A DNA stretch of 64,000 nucleotides. Origin: Amedibacillus dolichus DSM 3991. GTDB lineage: Bacteria > Bacillota_I > Bacilli_A > Erysipelotrichales > Erysipelotrichaceae. How positions within the stretch are numbered: position 1 is the first letter of the stretch; each line of letters begins with the position of its first letter. Below, one piece after another: positions 33,035-58,962 of the stretch. The notes under the pieces were generated by a model, which saw only the letters and a list, made by a program, of their open reading frames with translations, made no database searches and was not told the DNA's origin. The DNA lies in assembly GCF_000154285.1 (NCBI RefSeq), contig NZ_DS483474.1, positions 1 to 64,000 on the forward strand. Reading direction: 5' to 3'. The translations under genes and the position numbers were made by a program.

Positions 33035-34024
33035 TTAGTCCTTGATAGCTTGCTTAAGTTCTTCCCAAGTATTGCAGGTAAGAAGCTGATTGGATAGCTC
33101 ATATAGCTGGGATAGGCTTAAAGTGGATAACCACTCTTTTGCATCAATAGCGAATTTCTGCTTGATTAGTGTAGCTAATAGGTTTACGGTTCCTAGCGTA
33201 GTTCCGATTTGAGTACCTTTTTCTAAACCAAGCTTTGTGCCCTGTTCTAACCCTAGTTTTGTACCTTCCTCTAGACCTTTTTTCTTGCCTTCATCATAAC
33301 TATCCAACAGGTTATTCTTCTCTCTCCACTCTGCCATCTGCCTTGACATTGCCAGCGACCACAATCCTTCATCATCTTTGAATTTCTCATGCTTTTCCAT
33401 TAGCTTCCTCACCAACCTTTCCTTTGTCTTTAGTATAGCATGATTCGCATTGTTTTTAAACAAGTAGCACACCTGTTCAAAATCATTCATTGCTTCCATT
33501 CCCTTTTCTTTCGCTATTTCATCAATCATCGGCAGTTGAATATAGATTCTACGTAATAATGGCTCTTTGCTTTCTGCCTCTCCATATGGATCTCGCATAA
33601 TATAGCGATTGATCAATCGTTTCTCATTTTGCGGACATGCATTTACAAAGATGATCTGATAAATCGGTTGCAGCTGACGATAGTTCTCTCCCTCTACGAG
33701 CTGCTTGCTAAGCATGTTTGCCCCATAGTATTCAAATCGTTTCCATTCCGATGCCTGTAAGAAGGTAGTTTGCATTTCAAAGTCATATTCATGACCTTGC
33801 TCGTCCTTGACATGAATATCCAAGATGCTTTGCTTTTGCGCAAGCAGTGTTGGATCAAGATTTGGATTCAAAACGATGCTTTCTTTTGGGTGAATACCGG
33901 TAACACGTTCAATGATGGTGTTACGGATATACGTGGAATCCTCATCTTCACTTCCAAGAGCATATTTAAAGAAAAAGTCATTGCAGTAATTCACTTCATT
34001 ACTGCATGTTGTATTGGTAAGCAT
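33035..34024 (-). CDS. Rpn family PD-(D/E)XK nuclease / putative transposase
   Basis: A complete 329-residue member of the recombination-promoting nuclease family. The N-terminal half carries a PD-(D/E)XK core with Asp69 in ILDIH and ExQ in DFEMQ (Glu83, Gln85). A coiled, charged region follows, then three eight-residue repeats (GTKLGLEQ, GTKLGLEK, GTQIGTTL at 254-277) and a helical tail. E. coli RpnA-like proteins are calcium-stimulated DNases that raise RecA-independent recombination. The C-terminal third is nearly identical to the partial gene at 1-336, which lies in opposite orientation. No inverted repeats of an insertion sequence are seen at the ends. AGAGGATCGAT precedes the ATG. Confidence 0.88.
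   Translation of the reverse strand: MLTNTTCSNEVNYCNDFFFKYALGSEDEDSTYIRNTIIERVTGIHPKESIVLNPNLDPTLLAQKQSILDIHVKDEQGHEYDFEMQTTFLQASEWKRFEYYGANMLSKQLVEGENYRQLQPIYQIIFVNACPQNEKRLINRYIMRDPYGEAESKEPLLRRIYIQLPMIDEIAKEKGMEAMNDFEQVCYLFKNNANHAILKTKERLVRKLMEKHEKFKDDEGLWSLAMSRQMAEWREKNNLLDSYDEGKKKGLEEGTKLGLEQGTKLGLEKGTQIGTTLGTVNLLATLIKQKFAIDAKEWLSTLSLSQLYELSNQLLTCNTWEELKQAIKD
33188..33265 (-). repeat. 24-bp coding repeats in the Rpn-family gene
   Basis: Residues 254-279 are built from three 24-bp units encoding GTKLGLEQ-like octapeptides. The copy at 1-336 has only a fraction of one unit at this point, so unit number varies between copies. Confidence 0.75.
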
Positions 34025-34168: not shown

Positions 34169-34981
34169 CTACAAAAAATATCGCTGCAATACCTCACCTA
34201 CTCCATCATCTTCATTTGATAAAGCCGAAACCTCATCACATAGCATTTGAATATTTTCTTTCGCATTGCACATCGCAATCGTATGTCCTGCCACCTCAAA
34301 CATCGCCATATCATTCTCTCCATCACCGATCGCAATCACATTCGCCAAAGGAATTTTACGATACTCCATAACATCTTTTATCGCATTTCCTTTATTCACA
34401 TCAGCTGCATTTACATCAAAGCTGATATCATTATAGCTAGCTACAGTGATACCATCAATCCCCTCTATACGTTGGCGTAGTTTTCTTAAAAGTACCTTAT
34501 CCGTATCATAAATAAGGATTTTTACAATATCTTTCGATTTATCTTTTAATTCTTCCCAAGATAAATTCGGATAGGATTTGGTATATGGAAACTGTGGCAG
34601 CTTCACCCATTCGTCATACATAAAGCGTGCATCATAAGCTTCATGGGCATAAATTGTATCCTTACTTTTAAAGAAAGCCGGACTTTTCGTTTCCTTCAAG
34701 CAATCAATGATTTCCGCAAGGCATTTCTGTGGGATACACTTTTTTACAATCGTATCCCCTTTATCATAACAACCTCCATTACTGGAAATAACTTGTACCC
34801 GCTCATCAACTAAAGAGGCTTGATACTTTGTGAAAAAATATGGTCTTCCACTTACAAAATATACTTGTATCCCTTTATCTAAGCAAGCTTTTAAAACCTC
34901 TTTATTCTTTTGTGAAATCGTGGAATCCTTACCAAATAGAGTACCATCTAAATCTAAACAAACCGCTTGATATTTATTCAT
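34169..34981 (-). CDS. HAD superfamily (Cof-type) sugar phosphatase
   Basis: A 270-residue HAD phosphatase of the Cof/YidA group (type IIB cap). Motif 1 is DLDGTL (near 9-14), motif 2 SGRP, motif 3 the lysine in NKGNAI, and motif 4 IGDGENDMAMF. These enzymes remove phosphate from sugar phosphates or similar small molecules. The start overlaps the end of the iron dehydrogenase gene by 8 bases, so the two are coupled; the phosphatase may serve the same catabolic route by relieving sugar-phosphate stress. Substrate unknown. Confidence 0.88.
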   Translation of the reverse strand: MNKYQAVCLDLDGTLFGKDSTISQKNKEVLKACLDKGIQVYFVSGRPYFFTKYQASLVDERVQVISSNGGCYDKGDTIVKKCIPQKCLAEIIDCLKETKSPAFFKSKDTIYAHEAYDARFMYDEWVKLPQFPYTKSYPNLSWEELKDKSKDIVKILIYDTDKVLLRKLRQRIEGIDGITVASYNDISFDVNAADVNKGNAIKDVMEYRKIPLANVIAIGDGENDMAMFEVAGHTIAMCNAKENIQMLCDEVSALSNEDDGVGEVLQRYFL

Positions 34982-36095
34982 AAGCTTCTTTCAAAATCGT
35001 TTCCAAGAATTCTCTGCTTCCAAATGGCAAATGATCAAGTACCGGCCAAGCAATGATCGCATCAAATTGTTCTTGCGTTACTCCACATTCTTTTAATGTT
35101 TTATATAAGCCAATCGTTTTTAAGAAGGCTACTATCTCTGTGTATAGATCCTTACTGCCTTCATGGAACAAAGAGGCTACTGTTTCCATTTTTTCTTTAT
35201 TATCCGCATAGGCATGTTTGATAAATGGAGGGAATACGATAGCTAATGCTTCTCCATGTGCCATGTGTACGATACCACCGATATCCTCAGATAATGGGTG
35301 TGGAGCACTCGCTCCAGAATTGGCAAGGGCACGTCCTGCCAAAGTATCCGCTAAAGTCATCATTTTGCGATATTCGATATTATTAGGCTCTTCTAATACC
35401 ATAGGAAGATACTTAATAATCAGCTTCATCGCCTGCAAGGAATCCATTTCACTGTAAAATGATGCCCTTGGATTGATATAGCTTTCAAATGCATGCGTAA
35501 AAGCATCAAATCCGGTTGCTGCTGTGATACGCTTTGGCAAAGTTAATGTTAATTCGCTGTCTAAGATACATTCCTTTGAGAACAAGCTGCTATGATAGAA
35601 CGTAATTTTTTCTGTTCCCTTCGTGATTACAGATGCTTGTGTTAGCTGTGAACCGGTACCAGATGTTGTCGGTACCGTAATAATCGGAAGTACCGTATCA
35701 CTATATGGTCCATAATCAACGAATGGTGAATCATAAGCAAAAATTTCCTCCCAAACGATTTTGTCCTGTCCATTTGTAAAAGCCAAAGCCTTTGCCGTAT
35801 CGATAGAGCTGCCTCCACCGACAGCTAACACTACATCACAAGGGTGTTCCTTTAGCATCGCAAAGCCTTCTTCAATCATTTCAGCGCTTGGATTAGGTTC
35901 TACCTTATCAAAATGAATAACTTGCATATCGACAGCTGCTAATAGGCTCTTCACTCGCTCATACAATGGCTGTAACGGTGCATCGGCAGTAGTTACCAAA
36001 AAAACACGCTCTCCATATTTCTTACATATATCCCCTAATTCTTCTAATCGATGTTCTCCAAAATGGATTTTCGTTGGCTGATAATAATTAAACAT
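34974..36095 (-). CDS. Iron-containing alcohol dehydrogenase (second, class III)
   Basis: A 373-residue dehydrogenase with the NAD loop GGGSSID (near 94-100), the family segment PTTSGTGSQLTQASVIT, and metal ligands Asp and His in GFDAFTHAFE followed by histidines in APHPLSEDI and MAHGEALA. It differs from the dehydrogenase at 477-1637. Likely reaction is oxidation or reduction of a short polyol or aldehyde; its position divergent from an FSA-type aldolase and near dihydroxyacetone kinases recalls glycerol dehydrogenase neighbourhoods, but it is not a GldA sequence type as far as I can tell. CAAGGAGGAATATAT precedes the ATG. Confidence 0.87.
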   Translation of the reverse strand: MFNYYQPTKIHFGEHRLEELGDICKKYGERVFLVTTADAPLQPLYERVKSLLAAVDMQVIHFDKVEPNPSAEMIEEGFAMLKEHPCDVVLAVGGGSSIDTAKALAFTNGQDKIVWEEIFAYDSPFVDYGPYSDTVLPIITVPTTSGTGSQLTQASVITKGTEKITFYHSSLFSKECILDSELTLTLPKRITAATGFDAFTHAFESYINPRASFYSEMDSLQAMKLIIKYLPMVLEEPNNIEYRKMMTLADTLAGRALANSGASAPHPLSEDIGGIVHMAHGEALAIVFPPFIKHAYADNKEKMETVASLFHEGSKDLYTEIVAFLKTIGLYKTLKECGVTQEQFDAIIAWPVLDHLPFGSREFLETILKEAYE

Positions 36096-36186
36096 ATATA
36101 TTCCTCCTTGTATAATATCTATTATAAGTATAGTTTATTTACCCATTTCTTGACTAGGGCAGCTACGTAATAAACAAGCCATTATC

Positions 36187-36243
36187 ATTATGGTAATAAA
36201 TCGACAATATTCGAAAATATCACGTAATGATGTGGTAATAAAA
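36187..36243 (+). promoter_or_regulatory. Direct pair of TGGTAATAAA motifs upstream of the FSA-type aldolase
   Basis: ATTATGGTAATAAA (36187-36200) and TGATGTGGTAATAAAA (36228-36243) are direct repeats 42 bases apart, about four helical turns, between the divergent dehydrogenase and aldolase promoters. The core matches the TGTGGTAA motif near the EIIA and EIICB genes. Confidence 0.55.
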
Positions 36244-36281
36244 TTTACGTCTACACTCTATGCAGAAGCAAGTAACTATCC

Positions 36282-36287
36282 TATAAT
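36282..36287 (+). promoter_or_regulatory. -10 box of the FSA-type aldolase gene
   Basis: A perfect TATAAT lies 28 bases before the start codon without a good -35 box, which would fit activation through the upstream TGGTAATAAA repeats. Confidence 0.6.
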
Positions 36288-36314
36288 GAAAATAAACAAA
36301 TGGAGGTTATATGT

Positions 36315-36968
36315 ATGCGTTATATCATTGATACAGCAAACAGAGAACAAATTGATGAGGTTCTACAAATGGGAATTGATGGAGTAACTGCCAACCCTAC
36401 GATGTATTATACAAATCAAGAGGCTTTCTATCCCTTTATAGAACATTATGCCAAACAGAATTTATCCTTTTTAAGCGCTGAGGTCATGGGAGGCAGCGTT
36501 GAGGAAATGCTGGAACAAGCAAAAAAAATCCATGCTATTCATAGCGATATCGTAATTAAAATCAACTTTTCCAAGCAGGGTTTAAAGGTTTGCAGCCTAC
36601 TGCATAAGCAAGGATATCGCTGTGCTATGACCTTGTTATTTACCTTGCCCCAAGTTTGTGCCGCATTACAAGCCGGTGCAGATTATATCTTTCCGTTTAT
36701 CGGACGCAATGATGAAATTGGTGCTGACGGATTATCCTTTATTAAGAATGTTCAACGTATGATTGATCAAAAGAAGTATTCTACAAAAGTAGTAGCAGCA
36801 TCGATCAAAAACCTGCATCAGTTGGAAGAACTAGCTACTATGGGAGTCGATTATGCTGCTGTGCCTTATGCACTTTATATGAAATCCTTGGAGCATTCCT
36901 TAACAACAAGTGGAGCAGAGAAATTTAAAGAGGATTGGGAAAAACTAAAGGAAGATCAGTTAATATAA
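36315..36968 (+). CDS. Fructose-6-phosphate aldolase / transaldolase-like protein
   Basis: A 217-residue TIM-barrel of the small transaldolase family. Asp6 in IIDTAN, the TANPT motif (25-29) and Lys82 in IVIKINFS (Schiff-base lysine) match the FSA/TalC group. FSA-type enzymes split fructose 6-phosphate into dihydroxyacetone and glyceraldehyde 3-phosphate; others in the group are transaldolases. Dihydroxyacetone kinase genes begin about 140 bases downstream on the other strand, which favours a dihydroxyacetone-producing role, though this is inference. ATG 36315 is chosen because GGAGG lies eight bases upstream; an in-frame ATG at 36300 is itself part of the ribosome site. Confidence 0.85.
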   Translation: MRYIIDTANREQIDEVLQMGIDGVTANPTMYYTNQEAFYPFIEHYAKQNLSFLSAEVMGGSVEEMLEQAKKIHAIHSDIVIKINFSKQGLKVCSLLHKQGYRCAMTLLFTLPQVCAALQAGADYIFPFIGRNDEIGADGLSFIKNVQRMIDQKKYSTKVVAASIKNLHQLEELATMGVDYAAVPYALYMKSLEHSLTTSGAEKFKEDWEKLKEDQLI

Positions 36969-36990
36969 TTACAAACTTATTATCAAATAT

Positions 36991-37055
36991 AAAAAGATTA
37001 GATAGCTTTCATGAATACAAGCCTTTCATGAAGAACATACCTAATCTTTTTATTT
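36991..37055. repeat. 65-bp hairpin repeat, copy A (also a two-way terminator)
   Basis: AAAAAGATTAG and CTAATCTTTTT form the outer stem; inside are two TTCATGAA blocks that can also pair. It sits between the convergent aldolase and DhaL genes and has U runs on both strands. It is about 86% identical over 65 bases to the element at 46474-46538, in the same orientation. Confidence 0.85.
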
Positions 37056-37108
37056 GTTTTTTAATTAATTCATCATACTTAAAAAGTTTTGTTTTCCCTA
37101 TCCTCTAT

Positions 37109-37729
37109 CTACAAGGATTTAACAAATGCCTCCATCATTAGCATCGCTACACAAGCTCCCGGATCTTTTAAAGAGCGACTTGCTTCTCCTCGCGTTGCCG
37201 CACGCCCATGTATTGCTATCATTGTTGAAGTATTTTCATATCCTGCTTTTGATGCATCATACGCTTTTTGTGCTGCAGCTTGAATATCCTCATTTGCTTC
37301 AACACTCTTCTCTAAAGATAGGATTGCGGGATCAATGCCATCTAAAAATGTTTTCTCTCCAACCTTTGCTTTTCCACGATGCATTACACCATCTTCATAA
37401 GCCTTAAATAAACTACATAATTCTATCAATGATAGATCTGTCTTTCCTTTTAATACCTTTCCTGCTTGCATCAAACCCGAAGCCATCAACGTTCCCATAG
37501 TTGAAGGAACTGCAACAGACATTGCCTTTCCTGCCATATACAGCAATTTTCCTATATCAGTTTCATCAGTATTTTGGATTGATTCACTTGCTGCTTTAAA
37601 GCCATCGCTCATTGTCAGTCCTAAATCCCCATCTCCAACTATGCTATCTAATTGAATTAAATTCTCACGATTTTCTTGCATTACCTCTGCAATACAAGCT
37701 AATAGTCTTTTTAAATAATTGCAATCCAT
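37109..37729 (-). CDS. dhaL: Dihydroxyacetone kinase subunit DhaL (copy 1)
   Basis: A 206-residue all-helical nucleotide-binding subunit. The metal and ADP-binding aspartates are in VGDGDLGLTM; the usual His or Thr after the second Asp is Leu here. It hands phosphate from ATP, or from a PTS-charged ADP, to the ketose held on DhaK. It is the last gene of the minus-strand operon and follows its DhaK partner by 11 bases. AGGAGGCTATATA precedes the ATG. The second DhaL (43153-43794) has the more typical GDGDHGINM. Confidence 0.92.
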   Translation of the reverse strand: MDCNYLKRLLACIAEVMQENRENLIQLDSIVGDGDLGLTMSDGFKAASESIQNTDETDIGKLLYMAGKAMSVAVPSTMGTLMASGLMQAGKVLKGKTDLSLIELCSLFKAYEDGVMHRGKAKVGEKTFLDGIDPAILSLEKSVEANEDIQAAAQKAYDASKAGYENTSTMIAIHGRAATRGEASRSLKDPGACVAMLMMEAFVKSL

Positions 37730-37740
37730 TATATAGCCTC

Positions 37741-38751
37741 CTAATACTGTTTAAAAAACGGTGTATTTGCAGGATAATCTAACAATTCCTTTAGTTCATC
37801 ATCTAACTTCAATAACGAAATTGATAAGCCTGCCATTTCGAGTGATGTTGCATATTCACCAACATAATAACGATATCCGCAAATTCCTTTTTCTTCTAAA
37901 ATAGCATTAATCTTTCTTGTAACAATATATTGCTCATCTAGTGGTGTAGCTCCTAATCCATTTACCAATACCGCAACTTCATCTCCAGTTTCAAAAGGAA
38001 GATCCTCTAAAATACGCTCCATCATTTCTGAAGTAATTTGATCGGCAGGTTCAATTTTGCCACGACGGATTCCTGTTTCGCCATGGATCCCCATACCGAT
38101 TTCCATTTCATCATCACCGATTTCAAATCCTGCATGTCCGACACGTGGAACAACACAGCTCGTCAAAGCAACCCCTAATGTACGTGTATTCCAACTTGCC
38201 TTTTCGGCAATACGTTTAACGTTATCTAAATCCATCATTTTATCAGCGGCTGCCCCTGCACATTTATATACAAAGAATATTCCAGCCACACCTCGACGAG
38301 TAGATTTTTCCTCTGGTGTTTTTGGACCCGGACTAGCCACATCATCGGCTCCCAATACTGTTTCTACTCGGATATCATCTTCAAAATCTGCCATTTCTGC
38401 TGCCATATCAAAATTAAAGATATCACCGTTATAATTCCCATAAATATACAGTACACCTGCACCTGAGTCAATTTCTTTTGTAATAGCATGCATTTGTTCA
38501 GCACTCGGAGACTGAAATACATCTCCTACACAACAACCATCTAACATTCCATCTCCAACATAACCAAGAAATAACGGAAGATGTCCACTTCCTCCACCAG
38601 TCGCAATTCCTACTTTTCCTTCTTTTTTATTTTTTGTAACCAAGCATTGCTTATCATTATTTATATAAGTAATTTGATTTTTATGAGCTACATAAATTCC
38701 TTCTAACATTTCACACAAATAGTTTTCTGGATCATTTATAATTTTTTTCAT
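37741..38751 (-). CDS. dhaK: Dihydroxyacetone kinase subunit DhaK (copy 1)
   Basis: A 336-residue ketose-binding subunit. The glycine-rich GGGSGH (52-57), Asp110 in NYNGD and His223 in GIHGETG, which forms the covalent hemiaminal with the ketone in known enzymes, are intact. It binds dihydroxyacetone or a similar short ketose for phosphorylation by DhaL. The start overlaps the end of the histidine phosphatase gene by 20 bases, implying coupled translation. It differs from the second DhaK at 42136-43134, including at the motif (GHHGEPG there). Confidence 0.93.
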   Translation of the reverse strand: MKKIINDPENYLCEMLEGIYVAHKNQITYINNDKQCLVTKNKKEGKVGIATGGGSGHLPLFLGYVGDGMLDGCCVGDVFQSPSAEQMHAITKEIDSGAGVLYIYGNYNGDIFNFDMAAEMADFEDDIRVETVLGADDVASPGPKTPEEKSTRRGVAGIFFVYKCAGAAADKMMDLDNVKRIAEKASWNTRTLGVALTSCVVPRVGHAGFEIGDDEMEIGMGIHGETGIRRGKIEPADQITSEMMERILEDLPFETGDEVAVLVNGLGATPLDEQYIVTRKINAILEEKGICGYRYYVGEYATSLEMAGLSISLLKLDDELKELLDYPANTPFFKQY

Positions 38752-39364
38752 TATTTAACCCCTTTTCTACATATGTCATATTATTAACATCTTCTACTTT
38801 AAATTTTCCATTTTCAAAGGAAATAAGCGTAACACAACAATTTCCAAAACGTGTTTCATCTCGAAGTAGTGTTTCATACAATGATTCATTTACTACTCGA
38901 ATAGCTGCTAATATAGATAATCCGTGCGATACGCACATAATATTACCATGTTGATCTTTATTCAGTGTTATAATCTCATGTAATGTATGTGCCATTCGAT
39001 TAGTTAAATCATCTATTGTTTCTCCACCAACCGATGACCAATCATATGTTACACGTTCAATATATGTTTCACAGCCAGGAAATGAGTTTGGTTTTGTCTC
39101 TAAAGTTCCAAAGTTCATTTCTTTTAACCCACGACACATAATAGGTTTTAAATTTCTTTTTCCTAACGCATAGCAGGCTGTATCGTAGGCTCTTTCACTT
39201 GTAGAAGTATAAGCTTTTAGAAACGGAATATCTGCTAAGCCTTTACCTAAAGCTTTACCTTGCATAATTCCATTTGCAGTCAATGGTGTATCTGACCACC
39301 CCTGCAATGTATGCCAAGTATTCGAAAGTGTTTCTCCGTGTCTGATAAAATATAGCTTTAGCAT
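38732..39364 (-). CDS. Histidine phosphatase family protein (phosphoglycerate mutase-like)
   Basis: A 210-residue member of the RHG family: RHGETLSNT near 8-16 with the phosphorylated histidine, the Arg in STSERAYDT, Glu in EMNFGTLE, and the second histidine in VSHGLS. Such proteins are mostly small-molecule phosphatases; a true mutase would carry longer conserved loops. Within a sugar catabolic operon it probably dephosphorylates a sugar or polyol phosphate. It sits 10 bases after the class II aldolase gene and overlaps dhaK copy 1. Its ribosome site is weak. Confidence 0.87.
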   Translation of the reverse strand: MLKLYFIRHGETLSNTWHTLQGWSDTPLTANGIMQGKALGKGLADIPFLKAYTSTSERAYDTACYALGKRNLKPIMCRGLKEMNFGTLETKPNSFPGCETYIERVTYDWSSVGGETIDDLTNRMAHTLHEIITLNKDQHGNIMCVSHGLSILAAIRVVNESLYETLLRDETRFGNCCVTLISFENGKFKVEDVNNMTYVEKGLNNEKNYK

Positions 39365-39374
39365 AAATCATTCC

Positions 39375-40046
39375 TTATTTGCTATTTGGAAATTTTATTT
39401 CTTTCGGATACTCCCATTTTTGTAGTTCCTCTTGTTTAAAAGCCTTAGGTTCTACTCCATTACTAACTGTTAATGCATTATAGTAAAGTTGAGCAAGCTC
39501 TTCGATATAAGCGGCTTTTAAGAAGGCTTCATAAATATCTTTTGAATCAAACGCTACAACACCATGACTTTCCATCAAAAAGCTTTCTGCTTCTTTGCAT
39601 GCTTCAATAACACTATTAGCTAAATCCATAGTTCCCGGCCGACCATAAGGAGCAACTGGCACACGCGCTTTTGTTAAACCTAAGTTTGCAACCTCATATA
39701 CAATAGCGGGAATCGGTTTATTTAGTAATGCAAATGTTGTCCCATACATTGAATGCGTGTGGGCAATAGCATTTGCATCAGGTCTTGTTTTATAAATCAT
39801 AAGATGCATCAGTGATTCACTAGTTGGTTTTAATCCGGATAGATTTTCGATTACATTTGCTTCCATATCCATAACAATCATATCTCTTGGAGTTAAAACC
39901 TCTCGATCTACGCTTGTCGGAGTAATTACGACATATCCTGTTTCTTTATCTCTTGCCGAAAAATTCCCTGATTTGTGTTTACACAACCCATCTTTCTGTG
40001 CTCTTTTTGCGATTTCACAAACATCTTTTTTTAAACTTTCTAACAT
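39375..40046 (-). CDS. Class II aldolase/adducin family protein
   Basis: A 223-residue zinc protein of the fuculose-phosphate aldolase/ribulose-phosphate 4-epimerase family. The zinc ligands are visible in AHTHSMYG and ESHGVV, with KSGNFSARD as the phosphate-loop motif. Aldolases of this group cut ketose 1-phosphates to dihydroxyacetone phosphate and an aldehyde; epimerases act on L-ribulose 5-phosphate. The operon context of ketose kinases suggests the aldolase role, but sequence alone does not fix the substrate. GAGAGGATATAGAA precedes the ATG. Confidence 0.88.
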   Translation of the reverse strand: MLESLKKDVCEIAKRAQKDGLCKHKSGNFSARDKETGYVVITPTSVDREVLTPRDMIVMDMEANVIENLSGLKPTSESLMHLMIYKTRPDANAIAHTHSMYGTTFALLNKPIPAIVYEVANLGLTKARVPVAPYGRPGTMDLANSVIEACKEAESFLMESHGVVAFDSKDIYEAFLKAAYIEELAQLYYNALTVSNGVEPKAFKQEELQKWEYPKEIKFPNSK

Positions 40047-40048
40047 TT

Positions 40049-42118
40049 CTATATCCTCTCTTTCGAAATTATGCTTAATAATTCTTCTTTAGTAGCTGCA
40101 TTTTTCAATTGTGCCAATATTTCATCATCTTCTGTTATTTCAATCAAAGCGTATAACGCTTTTAAATGAACATCTTTATTAGGTGTTGCAATAACTACAA
40201 TAATGCTTGCTTCCATATATTCATTCATAATCACCGCTTCATCTAGCTTTAATAAAGACATACCTAGATGATTCACACCTTCATCAATACCCGCATGTGC
40301 AAGGATTAAACCATCTGCAATTGTCCAAATAGGCTTATCTGACTCTATTGTCCGAATCATCTGTTCTATATACGACTCCTCGATTGCCCCTTGCATAAGA
40401 AGCGGTTTGGCAGCTAATTGAATGGCTACTCTCCAATCCTCTATAGTGTTTTCAACACGAATCATATCCTCGGTAAGCAAATCCACTAGTCCTACATCAT
40501 TGCTTACCTTTTCATTTGATACGACATTTTGAGAATAATTTTCTTCTCCTAAATAGTTCTTTAAAGAATTTTTCAACCCTTGATAATCCTTGATATCCAC
40601 ATATTTTTCAATCACCTGTATAATGCTTGATGAATTAACTTCATACGCCGATCGATTTAATAATTCATTAAATACTTTTTTTCTTAATGTAACCACATCG
40701 TTTTCATTCATAATCGGTTTTACTAAAAACTGTGATTTATCTGTGTCTAACAAAACGGTTGTAAATACCGCATCAAATTCTTGTTCAAATTCATAAAATT
40801 GTCGTGATGAAAGCGTACAAATAAATTCAAGCTCAGGGAAAGCTTTTTGTAATTTTAAAAATAAAAAATTAGAAATTGAAACACCATTCGTACAAACAAC
40901 AATAGCTCTGCGTTTTTTTTCAACCATTTCAAGAGTTCCTTCTTTTGTCATCCAACCTCCGAATAAAATAGTAATATATGCTAATTCTTCTTCCGGAAAA
41001 GGACTTTTTATCATTTCTTCAAATGGTTGCATTGCATGTCTGGTAAGTTCAAACAAATAGCTATGCTGTGGTAAAATCATATTAAGTATTTTGCCCTCTA
41101 TGTGGTAATGATAACGAATACGATACATCGCTGGTCTTAAATGTTGAATTAACGCATCTAGCAATGATTTTCTATCTTTAAATGTAATACATACTAAGTT
41201 TTCAAAATTATATAATACTTTAGATGCTGCTTCAAACAGCTCTAATTCGAAGCTAGTATCATAACCATCTGCATAATTTATACTAGATATTTGAAATTGT
41301 GTAACAATGAATATTTTATCCATTGCATTTTCTATACGATATTTTTCAAAAACCTTCAAAATAATTCCATATTCTTTTGTTCCTACAATATGCTGATAAT
41401 CCTCCGGTAAAACATCTAAATGTTTTCCAGCCTTTATTCGTAAATATAGAAAATACAAAATATATGGAATTTCACGGATTCTTTCATCTGTATATTGTAC
41501 TTTTAAAAGCGACTCTACTTTTTCCACATCGGATTTAAATCCGTTCAAAACATCTTCATTAATTTCTAATACTGAAACTAACATTGATTTGCCATTTAAC
41601 GATTTTAAAATCGAACGGACCAAATAAATAATTAAATTGCGCTTCTCATATTCTTTTCCTACAATATAATACCCTTTACTGCGATCATATAACAGCTTTA
41701 AATCGTATGAATCCAAAATATTCATTTGCAATTTCTTCATATCATTGATAACTGTATTTTTGCTGATTTTCAAAATATTCGTAAAATGTTGAATGCTTAA
41801 TTCCTCTTTATGAGCTAACAATATCATAATGATAAATTTTAAACGCTCATTTTCTTCAAATACATATTCTTTTTCATTATATGTATTTTCACTTACTTTA
41901 TAATTTGCGATGATATCTTTACTAATAACAAATTTTCCTGTTTTTAAGCGTTTAATTTCTTCAAATCCATTCTCATTTAAATAGTAATTGATTTTCTGCA
42001 ATGAATAACTGATCTGTTTCCTTGATAGATTTAATTCTTTTTCCAATTGAGCGCCGCTAATCGCAGGATGATTAACCAGCATCATTAATATTTGAAACCC
42101 TCTTTTATCCAGCGACAT
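40049..42118 (-). CDS. PRD/EIIB/EIIA transcriptional regulator of the gat-dha operon
   Basis: A 689-residue multidomain regulator: two N-terminal HTH regions (about 5-60 and 80-150), PRD1 and PRD2 (about 175-285 and 290-400, including ALIQHLRPAMYRIRYHYH), a galactitol-type EIIB domain (about 405-490, Cys in VVCTNGVSISN), and a C-terminal EIIA domain of the mannitol/fructose type (about 540-689, His in LILAHAGIDEG). This is the MtlR/LicR-like architecture, a DNA-binding activator controlled by PTS phosphorylation, not an RNA antiterminator. It lies inside the operon it probably controls. AGGAGGAGAGCAAAGT precedes the ATG. Confidence 0.9.
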   Translation of the reverse strand: MSLDKRGFQILMMLVNHPAISGAQLEKELNLSRKQISYSLQKINYYLNENGFEEIKRLKTGKFVISKDIIANYKVSENTYNEKEYVFEENERLKFIIMILLAHKEELSIQHFTNILKISKNTVINDMKKLQMNILDSYDLKLLYDRSKGYYIVGKEYEKRNLIIYLVRSILKSLNGKSMLVSVLEINEDVLNGFKSDVEKVESLLKVQYTDERIREIPYILYFLYLRIKAGKHLDVLPEDYQHIVGTKEYGIILKVFEKYRIENAMDKIFIVTQFQISSINYADGYDTSFELELFEAASKVLYNFENLVCITFKDRKSLLDALIQHLRPAMYRIRYHYHIEGKILNMILPQHSYLFELTRHAMQPFEEMIKSPFPEEELAYITILFGGWMTKEGTLEMVEKKRRAIVVCTNGVSISNFLFLKLQKAFPELEFICTLSSRQFYEFEQEFDAVFTTVLLDTDKSQFLVKPIMNENDVVTLRKKVFNELLNRSAYEVNSSSIIQVIEKYVDIKDYQGLKNSLKNYLGEENYSQNVVSNEKVSNDVGLVDLLTEDMIRVENTIEDWRVAIQLAAKPLLMQGAIEESYIEQMIRTIESDKPIWTIADGLILAHAGIDEGVNHLGMSLLKLDEAVIMNEYMEASIIVVIATPNKDVHLKALYALIEITEDDEILAQLKNAATKEELLSIISKERI

Positions 42119-42135
42119 ACTTTGCTCTCCTCCTA

Positions 42136-43134
42136 TTATTTTTGTTTAACACCAACACAATCTACCGGAACTTCTAACAGTTGTTTAAATTCATCATTTA
42201 ATCTTAATACCGTTAACGCAGCTCCTCGCATCTCTAATGAAGTTACATAATCACCAACATAAGACTTATAAACTTTGATATTACGAGATGCGAAATAATC
42301 CTCGATGGCATCATACAGCACATACAATTCCATCAATGGCGTACCGCCTAATCCTGAAACGATAACCGCAATTTCTTCTCCATCTACTAATTCTAAATCA
42401 TTTAAAATATATTCTGATAATTCCTTGCCAATTTCATTTGCCGGTTTCAATTCTTTAACAGTCATGCCCGGCTCTCCATGATGACCGATACCGTACTCCA
42501 TCGTGCCTTCTTTAATTTCAAAATTTGCATGACCAACTGCCGGAATGGAACAAGAAGTTAAACCAACACATATACTACGTGTTTGGTCAACCGTTCTTTG
42601 CGCAATATCAATAACTTCATCTAAGCTAGCGCCTAGATTTGCCTTTGCGCAAGCAATTTTCCACATAAATAAACTTCCGGCAATACCATGTCGTTTTTCT
42701 TTTTCTGTTTTCGGAGCACTTGCCAAATCATCATTTGCCGTAACATATTTTACTTCTATTCCGTCCATAGCTGCCATTTGGATAGCCATTTTCACATTCA
42801 TATTATCGCCTGCATAATTTCCAAACAAGCAAGCTACTCCCGCACCGCTATCCGCTTCTAAAAATGCTTGATGAAAAGTAGTTGCAGGCGGAGAAGAAAA
42901 GACTTCTCCAACCGCAACTGCATCTAGCATATTTTCGCCAACATAGCCTAGAAAGCATGGCTCATGCCCACTTCCGCCACCACTGACAATTCCTACTTTT
43001 CCTTTTTTTAAAGTATTCTTTACAACCACATGATTATTCTCTGAACTGATATGAATTTGATCTTTATGCGCTTTTGCATAACCCTTTAACATATCATCAA
43101 CAATCATATCCCCTTGATTCATAAATCTTTGCAT
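42136..43134 (-). CDS. dhaK: Dihydroxyacetone kinase subunit DhaK (copy 2)
   Basis: A 332-residue ketose-binding subunit with GGGSGH (52-57), Asp110 in NYAGD, and the covalent-binding histidine in GHHGEPG (His219 the likely one). The start MQRFMNQGD is typical of the family; ATG 43134 is chosen over an in-frame TTG at 43143 because AAAGGATTGACTTTT precedes it. It pairs with the DhaL 18 bases upstream. The presence of a second, diverged DhaK in one operon suggests two different ketose substrates or mixed complexes. Confidence 0.93.
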   Translation of the reverse strand: MQRFMNQGDMIVDDMLKGYAKAHKDQIHISSENNHVVVKNTLKKGKVGIVSGGGSGHEPCFLGYVGENMLDAVAVGEVFSSPPATTFHQAFLEADSGAGVACLFGNYAGDNMNVKMAIQMAAMDGIEVKYVTANDDLASAPKTEKEKRHGIAGSLFMWKIACAKANLGASLDEVIDIAQRTVDQTRSICVGLTSCSIPAVGHANFEIKEGTMEYGIGHHGEPGMTVKELKPANEIGKELSEYILNDLELVDGEEIAVIVSGLGGTPLMELYVLYDAIEDYFASRNIKVYKSYVGDYVTSLEMRGAALTVLRLNDEFKQLLEVPVDCVGVKQK

Positions 43135-43152
43135 AAAAGTCAATCCTTTCTT

Positions 43153-43794
43153 TTATGCCATTAATGATATAGCTGTTTCGCACAATGTTTCAATCATAAT
43201 GGCACAGGAAGTAGCTCCTGCATCTTGATGCCCAATAGATTTTTCCCCTAATCGAGATGCTCTTCCTAATTTTGCTTGCATTGGTATTGTAGCGAGCATT
43301 CCTCCATGTGCTGCTTTTTTACACGCAAGTAACGCTTTCTTAACATCTTTTGATTGCGCATATACATTTTGATAAGCAGCAACACTTGGATCTAATACAT
43401 CAACTAAGGTTTTATCATTAGGTTTTGCATTAGAAATCATTTTAATATTTTCATAAGCTTGAGTTAACATACTTCCAATGACACTACCATCAATTATTTC
43501 TTTATCTTTGCATGCCATCTGCATTCCCATAAAAATTGAGCCATATAAAGGACCCATGGAACCTCCGATTTTATTCATCAATACTTTAGCTAACACACCT
43601 AAGCTTGCATATAAATTTTCAGTGTTATTAATTTCCTCTAAAGCAAGTGTAACTCCCTTATTCATGTTAATCCCATGATCTCCATCACCAATAGCACCGT
43701 CTACTTCACTTAGATAATCTTTGTTTTTTTGAATTGCTTCAATAATAGCTACTACTATTTGCTTTCCATCTTTATTTGTAAATTCCACAATCAT
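43153..43794 (-). CDS. dhaL: Dihydroxyacetone kinase subunit DhaL (copy 2)
   Basis: A 213-residue DhaL with the canonical metal-binding motif IGDGDHGINM near 30-39 and GGSMGPLYG near 77-85. It starts in an ATGA overlap with the EIIC stop codon, so its translation is coupled to the transporter. No DhaM (the PTS multiphosphoryl donor) gene is present in the window; if DhaM is absent from the genome, the kinase would have to use ATP directly. Confidence 0.93.
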   Translation of the reverse strand: MIVEFTNKDGKQIVVAIIEAIQKNKDYLSEVDGAIGDGDHGINMNKGVTLALEEINNTENLYASLGVLAKVLMNKIGGSMGPLYGSIFMGMQMACKDKEIIDGSVIGSMLTQAYENIKMISNAKPNDKTLVDVLDPSVAAYQNVYAQSKDVKKALLACKKAAHGGMLATIPMQAKLGRASRLGEKSIGHQDAGATSCAIMIETLCETAISLMA

Positions 43795-45167
43795 TCACCT
43801 AAATTATTCTGTACTGTTTCAGCTTCTGCTTGCTGATTCTCTTTTTTCAATTCTCTATAATAGAATACGTAGCATACTCCCCATACAACTAAGACTACCA
43901 AAGGAATCCAATTTCCATTGATAATATCGAAAACTTGTGAGATAGCATAAGTAAATACCGGAGCATCAATAGATGAATTAGAAATCATTTCTCCTGCTTG
44001 TAATGCAACAGCACCCGTCGCATTAGCTAAATCAGTAATGAATGGAGCAAATGCCGTACCTACCCATAAGAAAGCAGGAACACCTAGCGTACATAAAATT
44101 AACATTCTTGGCAAATTACCCTTTGTTACCAAGTATGCAGGAACAGCTAATGCAAGGTTGATGATACCGGCAAATGGCAAGATCTCATTACCAGGTAGGA
44201 ACAATGCGCAAAGTAATGTTACAGGAACTGCCCAAATAACAGCTAACCAAATCTCATTAGATCCACCTAAGAAAGGCCAATCTAAACCTACAAGCAATGT
44301 TCTTCCTTCAAAGCGTTTGTTCATATAATCACTAACTGCTTCACTAATTGGTGATAATGCTTGCATAAAATATTTCGTAATAACTGGGAATAATGTCAAT
44401 GCTGTCGCACATTGAATCGCTAATGTCAATGTTTTGGAAACATCATAACCGGCCATTAACCCAAATACAATACCTAAAATAAAGCCTAGCACATGATTTT
44501 CAGCGAAAATACCTACTTTGTCTTTCAATGCCGCTGCATCAAATTTTTTATTGAAAACAGGAATTTTTCTTAATAAAACATCTACAGGATACATTAAAGC
44601 TCCAAATAAAACCATTTTATGCGTACATGTTACTCCTGGGATTCCAGATAATTCCTCTATACGCTTTTGATGAACATCGGCTGTTTTTAATTCAAATATA
44701 ATTTGAATTGCGGCAACTAAAAATGCTAAAGGGACACTTCCTGTAATTGCAACTACACCTACTGCAGTAAAGATTTTCCCCCAAACATTCCATAAATCAG
44801 CATTAAATGTGTTTGTTTTCTTTAAAACTAACATAACAATATTAATTAAAATCATCAATGGAAACATCAAAAAAGCGTATGGCCAAGACCACGAAATCGT
44901 TGACATCGTTGTCCAACCACCATCAATAATCGGTAATGAAATACCTACATTTTTCAACATTGCCTCTGCTGCCGGAGTAATTGCGCCGGTCATGAAATTT
45001 ATCAGCATTGTCATACCGGTAAAAGCAACCCCAAGTGTTAAACCGGCAGAAATTGCATCTTTTAACTTCATTTTAACAATTAATCCTGCAAGAATAATAA
45101 TTATTGGTACGAAAATCGCTGCCCCTAAATCCAATAACGACTGTACAACAGTTGATAATAATTCCAT
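43791..45167 (-). CDS. PTS galactitol-family EIIC permease
   Basis: A 458-residue polytopic membrane protein (about ten to twelve helices) of the GatC/SgcC family, recognised by segments such as LDLGAAIFVPIIIILAGL, MLMNFMTG-like helices and GLDWPFLGGSNEIWLAV. It forms the sugar channel of a PTS whose EIIA and EIIB are encoded upstream. Relatives carry galactitol, pentitols and other polyols or ketoses; this one cannot be assigned. AAGGTAG precedes the ATG. Confidence 0.9.
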   Translation of the reverse strand: MELLSTVVQSLLDLGAAIFVPIIIILAGLIVKMKLKDAISAGLTLGVAFTGMTMLINFMTGAITPAAEAMLKNVGISLPIIDGGWTTMSTISWSWPYAFLMFPLMILINIVMLVLKKTNTFNADLWNVWGKIFTAVGVVAITGSVPLAFLVAAIQIIFELKTADVHQKRIEELSGIPGVTCTHKMVLFGALMYPVDVLLRKIPVFNKKFDAAALKDKVGIFAENHVLGFILGIVFGLMAGYDVSKTLTLAIQCATALTLFPVITKYFMQALSPISEAVSDYMNKRFEGRTLLVGLDWPFLGGSNEIWLAVIWAVPVTLLCALFLPGNEILPFAGIINLALAVPAYLVTKGNLPRMLILCTLGVPAFLWVGTAFAPFITDLANATGAVALQAGEMISNSSIDAPVFTYAISQVFDIINGNWIPLVVLVVWGVCYVFYYRELKKENQQAEAETVQNNLGE

Positions 45168-45199
45168 ATATTTCTACCTTCTTTCTTTCATATAAATAA

Positions 45200-45484
45200 T
45201 TATTTTGCTTGATTAATTGCTTCAATCAAACGTTCTAGCTCTTTATTTTGATTCATACCAGTTAAGAATGCTATTCCGTTAATTACAGGAACATCATATT
45301 CTTTAGATACCTTGGTAATTGTAATATACGCACAAGCATCTACTAAATGACGATCAACAGATTTTAGATCTACAGCTTCTACTACTGCATCAACACCCTT
45401 TTCTTTCAATAGTCGATTTACTTTTGATGCTACCGTTTGAGATGTCGCAACTCCACTACCACATGCAACAATAACTTTTTTCAT
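45200..45484 (-). CDS. PTS galactitol-family EIIB protein (second of two)
   Basis: A 94-residue soluble EIIB with the phospho-cysteine loop VACGSGVATSQ (Cys8). It is closest in layout to the EIIB encoded just upstream (45498-45782), so the operon has a tandem pair. The two could serve alternative EIIC proteins or one may signal to the PRD/EIIB/EIIA regulator. Confidence 0.92.
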   Translation of the reverse strand: MKKVIVACGSGVATSQTVASKVNRLLKEKGVDAVVEAVDLKSVDRHLVDACAYITITKVSKEYDVPVINGIAFLTGMNQNKELERLIEAINQAK

Positions 45485-45497
45485 ATTGATTCACTCC

Positions 45498-45782
45498 TTA
45501 TTTTAAAATATCCAATAATCTTTGAAATTCTTCTTCTTTTTGATTAGCATTTCCGTAAAGAAATACTAATCCATCAATTTTAGGAATATCGCATTTTTCA
45601 TCAGTTTTCATAACTTCAACATATGCAACTGCTCCCTTTAGTTCACGATGTAGTTCTCGAATATTTACTGCCTCTACCTTTACATCGTATAAATGATTCT
45701 TTTCAAGCATTCGATTGATACGGAATGCAACTGCCTGACTTGTCGCAACTCCATTACCACATGCAACAATAATACGTTTCAT
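45498..45782 (-). CDS. PTS galactitol-family EIIB protein (first of two)
   Basis: A 94-residue EIIB with VACGNGVATSQ (Cys8), paralogous to the next gene but clearly diverged after the P-loop. The start is ATG 45782, overlapping the EIIA stop by one base (TGATG); an apparent extra codon upstream is TTG. GAAAGG lies just upstream. Confidence 0.9.
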   Translation of the reverse strand: MKRIIVACGNGVATSQAVAFRINRMLEKNHLYDVKVEAVNIRELHRELKGAVAYVEVMKTDEKCDIPKIDGLVFLYGNANQKEEEFQRLLDILK

Positions 45783-46246
45783 CAAAACCCTTTCAAATGT
45801 TTTACAATATCAAGAAATTTTTCTTTTGTTTCAGCTGCAAGAAGTTGATCCATGATCTCCTTATCTTGGAAATTCTCAATTAGTAATTGTAATAGTTCTA
45901 CATGTCCCTCTTCACGTTTAAAACCTAATAGGAATACTACTCTAACTTTCAAGATATTGTCGTTATTTGCCATTTCGCACCAATCTATTTCATGCTTCAA
46001 ACGCACAGGAGCGATAAATTGCTTAATAATATTTACTGGATCTGAATGAGGTATTGCAACTGGATAGGGCTCTACCGGTAATGCTGTTGGATAGTTAAAT
46101 TCCCTTTCTTTTATTGCCTGCAGAAAGTTTGCCGTTACATATCCTAATGTTTGAGCTTTAACACTCATTTTCTCAAAAAACTCATCTGTACTTTGAACAT
46201 CTAAATCTAATTCACAAAGTTCATCGCAAATTAACGAAGCGTCCAT
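45782..46246 (-). CDS. PTS galactitol-family EIIA protein
   Basis: A 154-residue EIIA of the mannitol/fructose/Ntr fold with the phospho-histidine in VAIPHSD (near 64-70). First gene of the operon; GGAGGTGCAAAT precedes the ATG. It accepts phosphate from HPr and passes it to one or both EIIB proteins. Confidence 0.92.
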   Translation of the reverse strand: MDASLICDELCELDLDVQSTDEFFEKMSVKAQTLGYVTANFLQAIKEREFNYPTALPVEPYPVAIPHSDPVNIIKQFIAPVRLKHEIDWCEMANNDNILKVRVVFLLGFKREEGHVELLQLLIENFQDKEIMDQLLAAETKEKFLDIVKHLKGF

Positions 46247-55740: not shown

Positions 55741-58700
55741 CTATTCTGTTCTAAGTGCTGTTACCGGATCCTCTTTAGCTGCCTTACGTGATGGAATGAT
55801 ACCACCCAACAAGGTCAATAAGGTGCTTAATACAATCAGAATGACTGCCGCAAGTGGTGGTAAAGACGCATTGATTTGATTATTTCCCGCAATCGAATGA
55901 ATAATTTGATTTGCCGGAAGCAACAACAGCAATGTAATTACGATTCCGATGATTCCCGCCAACAATCCGATAATAAAGGTTTCCGCATTAAAGACCTCGG
56001 AAATATTACGCTTACTAGCACCGATGGCACGTAAGATTCCGATTTCTTTCTTTCGCTCCAGCACGCTGATATACGTAATAACTCCAATCATGATAGAAGA
56101 AACAATGAGTGAAATAGCTACAAAGGCAATAAGAACATAGCTAATGACATTGATGATATCACTGACTGAGGACATCAGCGTACCGACCATATCCGTATAT
56201 GTGATTACCTTATCTTCAGCACCCTGCTGCTCCATACGTTCATTATAGTTGTTTAAGATATTTAAAATTTCCTCTTTACTTTCAAAATCTTTGGGATATA
56301 TGTTGATTTGTGATGGACTGTCGAAATCCGCATAGCCAAGCTGCTTTAAGTTATTCTCATAAGTATAGCGTTCCTTGGACATCAAGGAAATCATCAGTTC
56401 GCCAAGCTCCTGCTCATTCATATTCATCGTAATAGCTTGTGCAAAGGCATTGGCATCAAAGGAAAATGCATCACTCATGGAAGTCTGTAAGTCCATTAAG
56501 CTTGACTGTAATTTACTCTGTATCGCCTGTGCCATGACACTTTCGACATCTTGCATATACGTTTGCATGATTTGTTGCAGCTGCGCTTGCAGATCATTGG
56601 ACTGTATTGTTTCCTGTAAGAATGAGTGAAGGATTACCTGTGCTTCCTCACTTTTCAAATATTCCATGAAGTATTTTCCTATATCCTGCATATCTGCTAA
56701 ATTATGCTCTTTTGCATAAGCATCATATCCTGCTAAAACCGTTCGTAAGCTTTTCTCCATCTGTTCCTTGCTGATGCTTATTTCTTTATTTTCCTTAATT
56801 GCTTCTTGTATCGTTTGATGAAGTACTCCGGCTACCTGTGGACTTTTCAAATACTCTTGTAAATGCGTTTGGTAATCAGCGAATGGATTGGTTTTTATAT
56901 ATTCCTCAAACCCCTTCATCAGTTTTTCCACAAGGGCTTGTAGCTGCTGTGGCTGTATAGATATATCCAGCTGTGTTAAAATCGCATTTAGATCCATTGG
57001 CGGAAGCTCGATTCCTGCCATGATTCCATTAAGATTTTGCATATCAGGCTTGAGCTTCGATGTATCGAATTGTATAGCCTCTCTCATTTTCGCTTCATCA
57101 ATCGTAAATAAGGATTTCATATCTAGGCTCGCAGTATCACCTTTCGCATCAAAGGCTTTTCCGGTAAATACATTGATATTTGGCTGTTTTTGCTGTGCCT
57201 TAACGATAGCACTGCTGCTTGCGTCTTTGATTACGTCCTTTACCAAAGCATCGGTATAATAAATACCTGACATCAGCATCGTTGCGGTTGCATCTTCCTT
57301 TGGTTGAACGATTCCAACAAGCTTCAAATCCTCACCCTTCTGTACAAGCTCTTGCATATACGCACGATCCTTGGTTTTATCCTTCCATACATGATAGGTT
57401 GCATCATAAGCATAATAATCGGCAGCATTTACACGTTTGAAGGTAATTCCTAGAATATCCTCATAATCGTAGGCATCATCGGCTTTGGGCACGATGACCT
57501 CCTCATTGCGAGCAAACTGCTCCACCATTTGATCCAGCTCTTTGGCATCACGAAGTCCTAAGGTGTATAACAGAAAATCCGTAACACTTCCTCGCCCACT
57601 TAAAACAAGCACACACTCGTTAGCATTTGTTGGCCAATGTCCTGCCTTTACATCATATTGATTCTTATACAATGCATCATTTTGTGGTAACGGATAAAAA
57701 ACATTGGTGCTCATCATGCTTGACATCATATTGTTAGAGCTGCTAGTAGAACCAAGACCAAGTGTTTGAAAGGATTGATCCGGGTGTACTTGGCGAACAT
57801 CATTTTCCTCCATACGATAAATTTGCGGAGTTATTTGATAGGTGTATTCCACTGCATTCGTATAGCGTTCAATACCCGATCCTCCTGTTTCAAGATATTG
57901 CTTGAGGCTTGCTAAATCGTTTGATCCGATAGTAGAAAACATACTTGTCAGCATATTGCCGACTTGAATATCGCCTTGTGGCTCTTGTTCCTCCTGCTGC
58001 ATAGCCTCTCCCATCATAGAGGTCATATCAAAACCGGAGCTTTGAATTTGCAGCGGATATTGCGATAAAGTGTTTTCTTCTACATCTTTAATATACGTAC
58101 TAACACCATTGGATAAGGATAAAATAGCTGCAATACCGATAATTCCAATCGATCCTGCAAAGGCAGTTAAGATCGTTCTTCCTTTTTTGGTTTTCAGGTT
58201 ATTGAAGCTTAGCGATAAGGAGGTCATTAACGACATAGAGGTTTTGCCCATACTTTGATGAACGGCTTGTTTTTCTTCCTCTACAACAAAAGGATTGCTG
58301 TCGGATATGATCTTTCCATCACGTAAATTTACGATACGATTGGCATATTGCTCTGCCAATTCGGGATTGTGCGTAACCATGACAACCAAGCGATCCTTGG
58401 CAACCTCTTGCAACAGATCCATGACCTGAATGCTTGTATCCGAGTCAAGTGCTCCTGTCGGCTCATCGGCTAACAGGATATCCGGATCATTTACCAAAGC
58501 TCTGGCAATTGCGACACGCTGCATTTGTCCACCGGACAGCTGGTTTGGCTTCTTGTGTAGCTGTGCACCTAAACCTACCTGCTGCAAGGCATGGATTGCC
58601 AGCTTTTTACGTTCACTTTTGGAAGTTCCGGAAATGGTAAGAGCTAATTCCACATTGGATAAGATAGTTTGATGTGGAATCAGGTTATAGCTTTGAAATA

Positions 58701-58962
58701 CAAAGCCAATCGTATGATTACGGTAGGAATCCCAATCCCGATCACGATAATTTTTTGTGGATATGCCATTGATAATCAAATCTCCGCTGTCATAGCGATC
58801 CAAACCACCGATGATATTTAACAATGTCGTTTTTCCTGAACCACTTGGCCCCAGGATTGCGACAAATTCACTATCACGCAAATGTAGGCTTACATCATCT
58901 AAGGCTTTTTGAACAAGTGTACCGGTTTTATATTCCTTATGAATATGTTTGATTTGCAGCAT
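55741..58962 (-). CDS. Fused ABC transporter ATPase/permease with large exposed domain (MacB/FtsX-like)
   Basis: A 1073-residue fusion: ATPase (1-225) with GPSGSGKTT Walker A (38-46), QLSGGQMQR-type signature and [10 protein letters not shown] Walker B; one membrane helix near 265-290; a ~600-residue extracellular region with helical, Gln/Met-rich stretches; then three FtsX-type helices (about 945-1065). The layout matches type VII ABC exporters that move lipoproteins, peptides or act in wall stress. The upstream lipoprotein gene is probably its partner. AAAGGAAGATATAC precedes the ATG. Confidence 0.88.

Follow-up and report, generated by a model that had tools for sequence, protein, structure and literature searches.

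A DhaM-free operon of Amedibacillus dolichus combines a Gat-family phosphotransferase system and a FucA-type aldolase with two distinct DhaK/DhaL pairs

The present study concerns a stretch of 64,000 nucleotides from Amedibacillus dolichus DSM 3991 (contig NZ_DS483474.1, positions 1 to 64,000; hereafter the window) and, within it, a minus-strand operon that encodes two pairs of dihydroxyacetone (DHA) kinase-type proteins, DhaK1/DhaL1 and DhaK2/DhaL2. Directly from the sequence, we observed that the operon joins both pairs to a galactitol (Gat)-family phosphotransferase system (PTS), a PRD regulator and a class II aldolase, that a core of these genes is conserved in other bacteria, that kinases and aldolase keep their catalytic residues, that the genome has no DhaM, and that the two DhaKs belong to separate clades. 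We consider the chances roughly balanced that the operon takes up a ketose-like sugar through the PTS and cleaves it with the aldolase, after which DhaKL would phosphorylate the free fragment(s) at the expense of ATP, with DhaK2/DhaL2 as the core kinase and DhaK1/DhaL1 as an addition. More tentatively, it may represent a horizontally spread, previously undescribed ketose PTS pathway, a bacterial PTS equivalent of the fructose-1-phosphate/triokinase route. In it, retro-aldol cleavage would be combined with two ATP-dependent, DhaM-free DhaKL enzymes acting on different carbonyl substrates, and lineages would repeatedly have gained a second, unrelated DhaK.

Eleven co-directional genes run on the minus strand from 46246 down to 37109. 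They are separated by gaps of 2-32 bp or overlap, at three junctions, by 4 bp (EIIA/EIIB1 and EIIC/DhaL1) or 20 bp (phosphatase/DhaK2); because of these short distances, they very likely form a single transcription unit. Scans of the locus for promoters, terminators and cre sites gave results not above chance. The first gene encodes EIIA (45782-46246; PTS_EIIA_2 of the galactitol/fructose type, Pfam 3.5e-27), followed by an extra EIIB paralogue, EIIB1 (45498-45785; PTS_IIB, 3.5e-06), the cognate EIIB2 (VACGSGVATSQTVASK; 45200-45484; PTS_IIB, 3e-12), and EIIC, a galactitol-family permease (43791-45167; EIIC-GAT, PF03611, 1.3e-66). Next come DhaL1 of the GDGDHG type (43153-43794; Dak2, 9e-51), DhaK1 (42136-43143; Dak1, 1.3e-111), and a PRD/EIIB/EIIA regulator of LicR/MtlR/Mga-like architecture (40049-42118; PTS_EIIA_2, PRD, HTH_11, and Mga). 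The remaining genes encode a FucA-type protein of the class II aldolase/adducin family (39375-40046; Aldolase_II, 3.7e-47), a histidine phosphatase (38732-39364; His_Phos_1, 1.8e-38), DhaK2 with the signature GGGSGHLPLFLG (37741-38751; Dak1, 3.8e-120), and DhaL2 of the GDGDLG type (37109-37729; Dak2, 2.3e-38). Every gene listed in an earlier note on this DNA is an open reading frame and matches the named Pfam family above its cut-off, so the gene content given there stands, apart from the FSA label discussed below.

A protein scan of named genomes and of genomes of the order, followed by neighbour mapping of the loci, revealed a core whose members stay linked from genome to genome, consisting of EIIA-EIIB-EIIC, the PRD regulator, the aldolase, and DhaK2-DhaL2 (G and L numbers below are our handles for genomes and loci). 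In Firmicutes, the core occurs in L119, L039, L125, and L157, and in L123 without a regulator match; in Enterobacterales, it occurs in L091-L113, L136, L137, and L168-L170. L119, from G052 of the same family, has the full order EIIA-EIIB-EIIC-DhaL1-DhaK1-regulator-aldolase-DhaK2-DhaL2, and L039 of Anaerostipes hominis has the same type of order minus DhaL1. L123 of G101 encodes two kinases, the second being a fused DhaK-DhaL chain, and a regulator match is lacking within its operon. In G051 (L125) and G351 (L157), the core comes with a single DhaK/DhaL pair. The distribution is patchy, with the core found in 4 of 397 Anaerostipes-family genomes, 4 of 295 Enterobacteriaceae, and 1 of 392 genomes of a phylum sample, namely the query itself. 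No dehydrogenase, isomerase or PfkB kinase was found within the core of these loci, and no gene of the fructose-6-phosphate aldolase (FSA) type, window-like iron-containing alcohol dehydrogenase (Fe-ADH) or HAD gene is a constant part of them. The earlier note knew of no exact match to its gene set. Searching other genomes for the gene order showed that the set is not unique, as the full order recurs in L119 and the core widely; EIIB1, the phosphatase, the FSA, the Fe-ADH, and the HAD protein, which that gene set also included, are not core.

Among the enterics, the core is present in Kluyvera, Hafnia, Klebsiella spallanzanii, and others (L091, L096, L099, L101, L102, L108, L113, L168-L170). 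An HPr gene follows it wherever the contig continues, and in most loci a second, divergent DhaK-DhaL pair comes next. We rejected DhaKLM as an identity for this second pair, which consists of DhaK-DhaL only and has no adjacent DhaM; a separate HPr ends the main operon. The HPr gene lies at 11389-11655 of L136 and at the same place in L091-L108 and L168-L170, and its product shares 27% identity with the HPr domain found in E. coli DhaM. When enteric loci were probed with ilv queries, the set was found between ilvA and ilvC in L091 and L170, as it is in plasmids. The same segment is carried by E. coli and Klebsiella plasmids, one of which is typed as conjugative IncN, and the aldolase occurs at 60-80% identity in 38 plasmid records. 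In L136 (NZ_CP027125.1, 13160-33467) and L137 (CP067444.1), the enteric operon sits on plasmids within a piece of chromosome with the order ilvD-like fragment, ilvA, operon, fabV, second DhaL-DhaK, ilvY, ilvC, ppiC. IS1 elements on both flanks of L136 suggest IS1-mediated capture.

The A. dolichus genome (2.19 Mb, 98% complete) has two Dak1 genes in all, both in the operon. In a maximum-likelihood tree built from 51 DhaK sequences, DhaK1, DhaK2, the DhaM-linked DhaKs (including those of E. coli and Lactococcus lactis), and the enteric second DhaK stand apart from one another. The DhaK1 clade comprises seven rows with a support of 100/100; neither the fused copy of G101 nor the second copies of the enterics belong to it, their exact joins being uncertain owing to long branches. 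These separate clades, together with the differing DhaL signatures (GDGDHG vs. GDGDLG), bear out the earlier distinction of two DhaK/DhaL pairs. Equivalents of E. coli DhaK H56, D109, and H218 are kept in every DhaK copy aligned, including DhaK1 and DhaK2, and the claim that both retain the ketone-binding His and the catalytic Asp was thus correct. Close to the catalytic D109, E. coli DhaK has K104. Gly stands at this position in both operon DhaKs, in the fused copy, and in the second DhaK of the enterics, whereas L. lactis and the L025-L028 and L036 copies, which have DhaM neighbours, share the Lys of E. coli. Gly here is not strict proof that DhaM is missing, since L021 has Gly with a DhaM neighbour; the DhaK of L134 retains Lys, with no DhaM hit.

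The two DhaLs also differ. DhaL1, 62% identical to its L119 counterpart, scores 175 bits on the curated PTS-type DhaL model TIGR02365 (cut-off 138.3), and DhaL2 stays under this cut-off with 128.7 bits. DhaL2 combines GDGDLG with a divergent nucleotide-site loop, PSTMGT, as against GDADHG and GGASGP in E. coli DhaL; in the alignment with the latter, DhaL1 is near-canonical at both signature and loop. GDGDHG was discarded as proof of a DhaM-dependent DhaL, since it is also found in L132, L133, and L135, from genomes without DhaM.

The DhaM model TIGR02364 gave no match in this genome at E values up to 10, and none of the six EIIA-man domains elsewhere in the genome scores with it. Thus, the absence of DhaM reported for the island holds genome-wide, and it is common to relatives: G052, G101, G175, G181, G244, G191, G051, Anaerostipes, and Kluyvera intermedia, which have related operons, showed no DhaM, although the G175 genome is only 74% complete. 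Hafnia and Klebsiella spallanzanii carry DhaM elsewhere in the genome. The lack of DhaM is the sole ground on which we infer that both two-subunit kinases most likely use ATP, as fused enzymes do. In humans, a single DhaK-type enzyme, TKFC, uses ATP and acts on both glyceraldehyde and DHA (PMC6429413).

The operon aldolase aligns with FucA along its length. Equivalents of FucA E73, H92, H94, Y113, and H155 are kept by this aldolase and its core orthologues, in all nine core or partial loci aligned. Since these catalytic residues are kept, the protein is likely to perform aldol cleavage. At the phosphate end, N29 and S72 are kept and T43 mostly so (FucA numbering). On the L-fuculose-1-phosphate equivalog, the aldolase scores 137.8 bits against a cut-off of 264.

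Among the PTS components, orthologues of EIIA form the first gene of the core operon in L119, L039, L123, L157, and the enterics. EIIB2 is 62-76% identical to the sole EIIB of all other core operons, and EIIC is 48-79% identical to its core orthologues. EIIC reaches 225.7 bits on PF03611 (cut-off 24.2) and 283 bits on TIGR00827, under its cut-off of 542; no PTS component reaches its galactitol-specific NCBIfam cut-off. EIIB1 keeps its phospho-cysteine (VACGNGVAT) in the alignment. Across 309 genomes of the order it lacks an orthologue, and its best matches there, led by cognate EIIBs, reach at most 48% identity. Judged by these low identities, it is a lineage-specific extra, added in this genome. 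Both EIIB paralogues pointed out earlier are therefore present and belong to Pfam PTS_IIB; EIIB2 is the cognate one and EIIB1 is not core. For EIIB1 as a substitute for DhaM, we found no evidence either for or against, and the protein is specific to this genome. In both Firmicutes and enterics, the PRD regulator is a core gene. Most core operons lack the histidine phosphatase, which, by neighbour mapping, is a non-core addition in this genome. In L158, a phosphatase homologue of 33% identity lies directly beside the aldolase, next to a partial gene that resembles RhaD-type aldolases by sequence.

Both kinase types recur in other settings. DhaK2-type pairs are found in ATP-binding cassette (ABC) transporter operons, where L042 adds a ureidoglycolate-lyase-like protein and an Fe-ADH. 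In L042, L046, L061, and others, the pair belongs to ribose-type ABC operons of Clostridia, Spirochaetes, and Chloroflexi, which often adjoin a gene of ~160 amino acids. RpiB was considered for this gene and dismissed, as the one product tested (L042) is ureidoglycolate-lyase-like, a DUF4867 relative; no RpiB linked to DhaK2-clade loci was found, including in the ABC operons of the closest relatives. DhaK2/DhaL2 together with a class II aldolase also occur in probable microcompartment loci (L059, L065-L070, L072, L073, L075), which further hold an aldehyde dehydrogenase, a CoA transferase, and an Fe-ADH (annotated in L059) and in which no diol dehydratase is visible. In L121 and L122 (G175 and G181), a DhaK2-type pair accompanies a PTS of the mannose type by sequence and an FBA-type aldolase; these loci further carry a serine hydrolase and an EutQ-like cupin. 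DhaK1-type pairs occur in L132, L133, and L160 with a fructose-type PTS, an FBA-type aldolase, a xylose-isomerase-like protein, RpiB, and a cupin, and, with variations, in L135.

This recurrent linkage of PTS, aldolase, and DhaKL is the main support for the following flow. The Gat-family PTS (EIIA, EIIB2, EIIC) would bring in a ketose-like sugar as its phosphate, and the FucA-type zinc aldolase would split the sugar phosphate into two short fragments, one phosphorylated and the other free. The products could be dihydroxyacetone phosphate (DHAP) and glyceraldehyde or another aldehyde, or else DHA and an aldehyde phosphate. The DhaK/DhaL enzymes would phosphorylate the free fragment(s) for entry into glycolysis, and the PRD regulator would control the operon via PTS phosphorylation. 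DhaK2/DhaL2 would be the core kinase and DhaK1/DhaL1 a separately recruited second kinase, probably for a different carbonyl substrate or stereoisomer. A second, non-orthologous DhaK stands beside the core in three lineages, namely Firmicutes, enterics, and G101. Because such a DhaK has joined the same PTS-aldolase core in several lineages, two different jobs are plausible.

Four observations weigh against this flow. Most aldolase copies have S, Q or T where FucA has G44, a residue of the phosphate site, which makes FucA-like binding of a 1-phosphate uncertain. Since DhaL1 passes the PTS-type DhaL model, a PTS donor is still possible. The cores of G051 and G351 hold one DhaK only, so that two kinases are not always needed; a strict requirement for two is weakened accordingly, and the earlier proposal of two pairs for two substrates keeps its plausibility from the distinct subfamilies and loses any obligatory character. 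Finally, the closest DhaK2 relatives also occur in ABC-transporter operons without an aldolase, and the DhaK2 kinase is thus not tied to aldol cleavage.

The order of the enzymes could also be reversed. The PTS would then phosphorylate a ketose at its far end, DhaKL would add the C1 phosphate, and the aldolase would split the bisphosphate into DHAP and an aldehyde phosphate. We regard this as unlikely, though it deserves weight: Gly at the K104 position of both DhaKs could make room for a longer substrate, and L134 of G052, also a Gat-PTS/DhaKL operon, includes an alcohol dehydrogenase and, at a later position, an aldolase that is RhaD-like by sequence. Such an arrangement would fit a kinase that phosphorylates C1 ahead of an aldolase for ketose 1-phosphates. 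As established for the E. coli and human enzymes, however, the covalent His link of DhaK requires an open-chain carbonyl, which disfavours cyclising hexulose phosphates, and the aldolase showed no feature specific to a bisphosphate. A sensory role for DhaK1, like that of L. lactis DhaQ, would have it bind a ketone and signal to the PRD regulator, leaving DhaK2/DhaL2 as the sole metabolic kinase. In Anaerostipes hominis (L039), DhaK1 does stand without DhaL1 directly ahead of the regulator gene, and the DhaK1-regulator order is common to the window and L119. This role is nonetheless rather improbable, and DhaK1 as DhaQ is disfavoured, since it keeps D109 besides H56 and H218, scores far under the DhaQ model cut-off (217 vs. 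413 bits on TIGR02362), and is paired with its own DhaL1 in the window, L119, L132, L133, and L135.

With EIIA, EIIB, and EIIC all of the Gat family, the operon might instead be a PTS pathway already well described for galactitol, tagatose or pentitols and hidden by generic gene names. There is little chance of this, as every component lies under its galactitol-specific NCBIfam cut-off and the operon is without a GatD-type dehydrogenase, GatY/GatZ, and tagatose kinase. In the scheme of the earlier note, FSA yields DHA from fructose 6-phosphate for one pair, and the other pair acts on a tetrulose from the PTS polyol. The existence of two distinct kinase subfamilies agrees with it, as does RpiB beside DhaK1 relatives, which a tetrulose route would predict; tetritol pathways are outlined elsewhere (PMC12780249). 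The scheme is very unlikely all the same, because the operon has neither a polyol dehydrogenase nor RpiB, the DhaK2-clade loci are likewise without RpiB, and the proposed DHA source fails. The TAL_FSA protein (36300-36968, plus strand; Pfam TAL_FSA and active-site alignment) is convergent with the operon, was not found at the other core loci, and has E59, L110, and F131 (FsaA numbering), as do TalB and the Thermus transaldolase 1wx0, where FsaA itself has Q, A, and Y. We take positions 59 and 131 to discriminate FSA from transaldolase activity, as judged from FSA and TalB mutants. The window protein is thus probably a transaldolase, and on its active-site residues we rejected it as an FSA-type DHA source; the FSA-like copy of the genome, with Q59/A110/Y131, is a second TAL_FSA gene 84 kb away (contig C5:120619-121236).

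Beside the TAL_FSA gene and divergent from it lies a separate minus-strand unit (36095-34169) composed of an Fe-ADH (34974-36095; Pfam 5.9e-46), which reaches no NCBIfam equivalog cut-off, and a Cof-type HAD-IIB phosphatase (34169-34981; Pfam 1.8e-53, TIGR00099 above cut-off). Judged by these orientations, all three genes are non-core neighbours outside the operon. A gene for an Rpn/PD-(D/E)XK nuclease-family transposase (33035-34024) adjoins the island. Elsewhere, the window encodes an ABC ATPase fused to an FtsX-type permease (55741-58962; 1073 amino acids) and a phosphofructokinase-family protein (60893-62551; 552 amino acids).

We found no published description of this gene set in the open-access literature. 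The component families are all known; what sets this variant apart is how they are combined, the missing DhaM, and the presence of two kinases. DhaK homologues are routinely labelled dihydroxyacetone kinase, and separate subunits are assumed to need DhaM. Considering that two DhaK subfamilies occur in DhaM-free genomes, have the same active-site residue exchanged, and are linked to a PTS and an aldolase, many genes probably bear a misleading label of this kind. Furthermore, since gut bacteria carry the operon, as do conjugative IncN plasmids of Enterobacteriaceae, its sugar could be identified directly through growth screens that compare strains having and lacking the operon.

With the galactitol PTS (gatABC), the operon shares the EIIA, EIIB, and EIIC families, and differs from it in having an aldolase and DhaKL and no polyol-phosphate dehydrogenase. 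The Gat-type pentitol PTSs of Listeria and Bacillus belong to the same EIIA, EIIB, and EIIC family, and the operon differs from them in the same respects. The tetritol pathway of Mycolicibacterium smegmatis has DhaK-type erythrulose kinases and therefore resembles the proposed one in employing DhaK-type kinases on a ketose other than DHA. Compared with that pathway as outlined in PMC12780249, the operon is without RpiB or a TIM-like isomerase, relies on PTS instead of ABC uptake, and contains an aldolase. The DhaK-DhaL-DhaM systems of E. coli and L. lactis have the two-subunit kinase, the covalent His, and the catalytic Asp in common with the kinases described here, and DhaL1 passes their DhaL model. 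In contrast, our genome has no DhaM, K104 is replaced by Gly, the DhaKs form separate clades, and DhaL2 lies under the DhaL cut-off with a divergent loop. Single-chain ATP-dependent DHA kinases, including human TKFC, likewise combine K and L domains with the covalent mechanism, and ATP is likely the donor here too; in the operon, K and L are separate proteins, whereas the second kinase of G101 is a fused K-L chain. All catalytic and zinc residues of FucA are found in the operon aldolase, which nevertheless falls under the equivalog cut-offs, has G44 and S71 substituted, and is coupled to a PTS and DhaKL instead of FucK and FucI.

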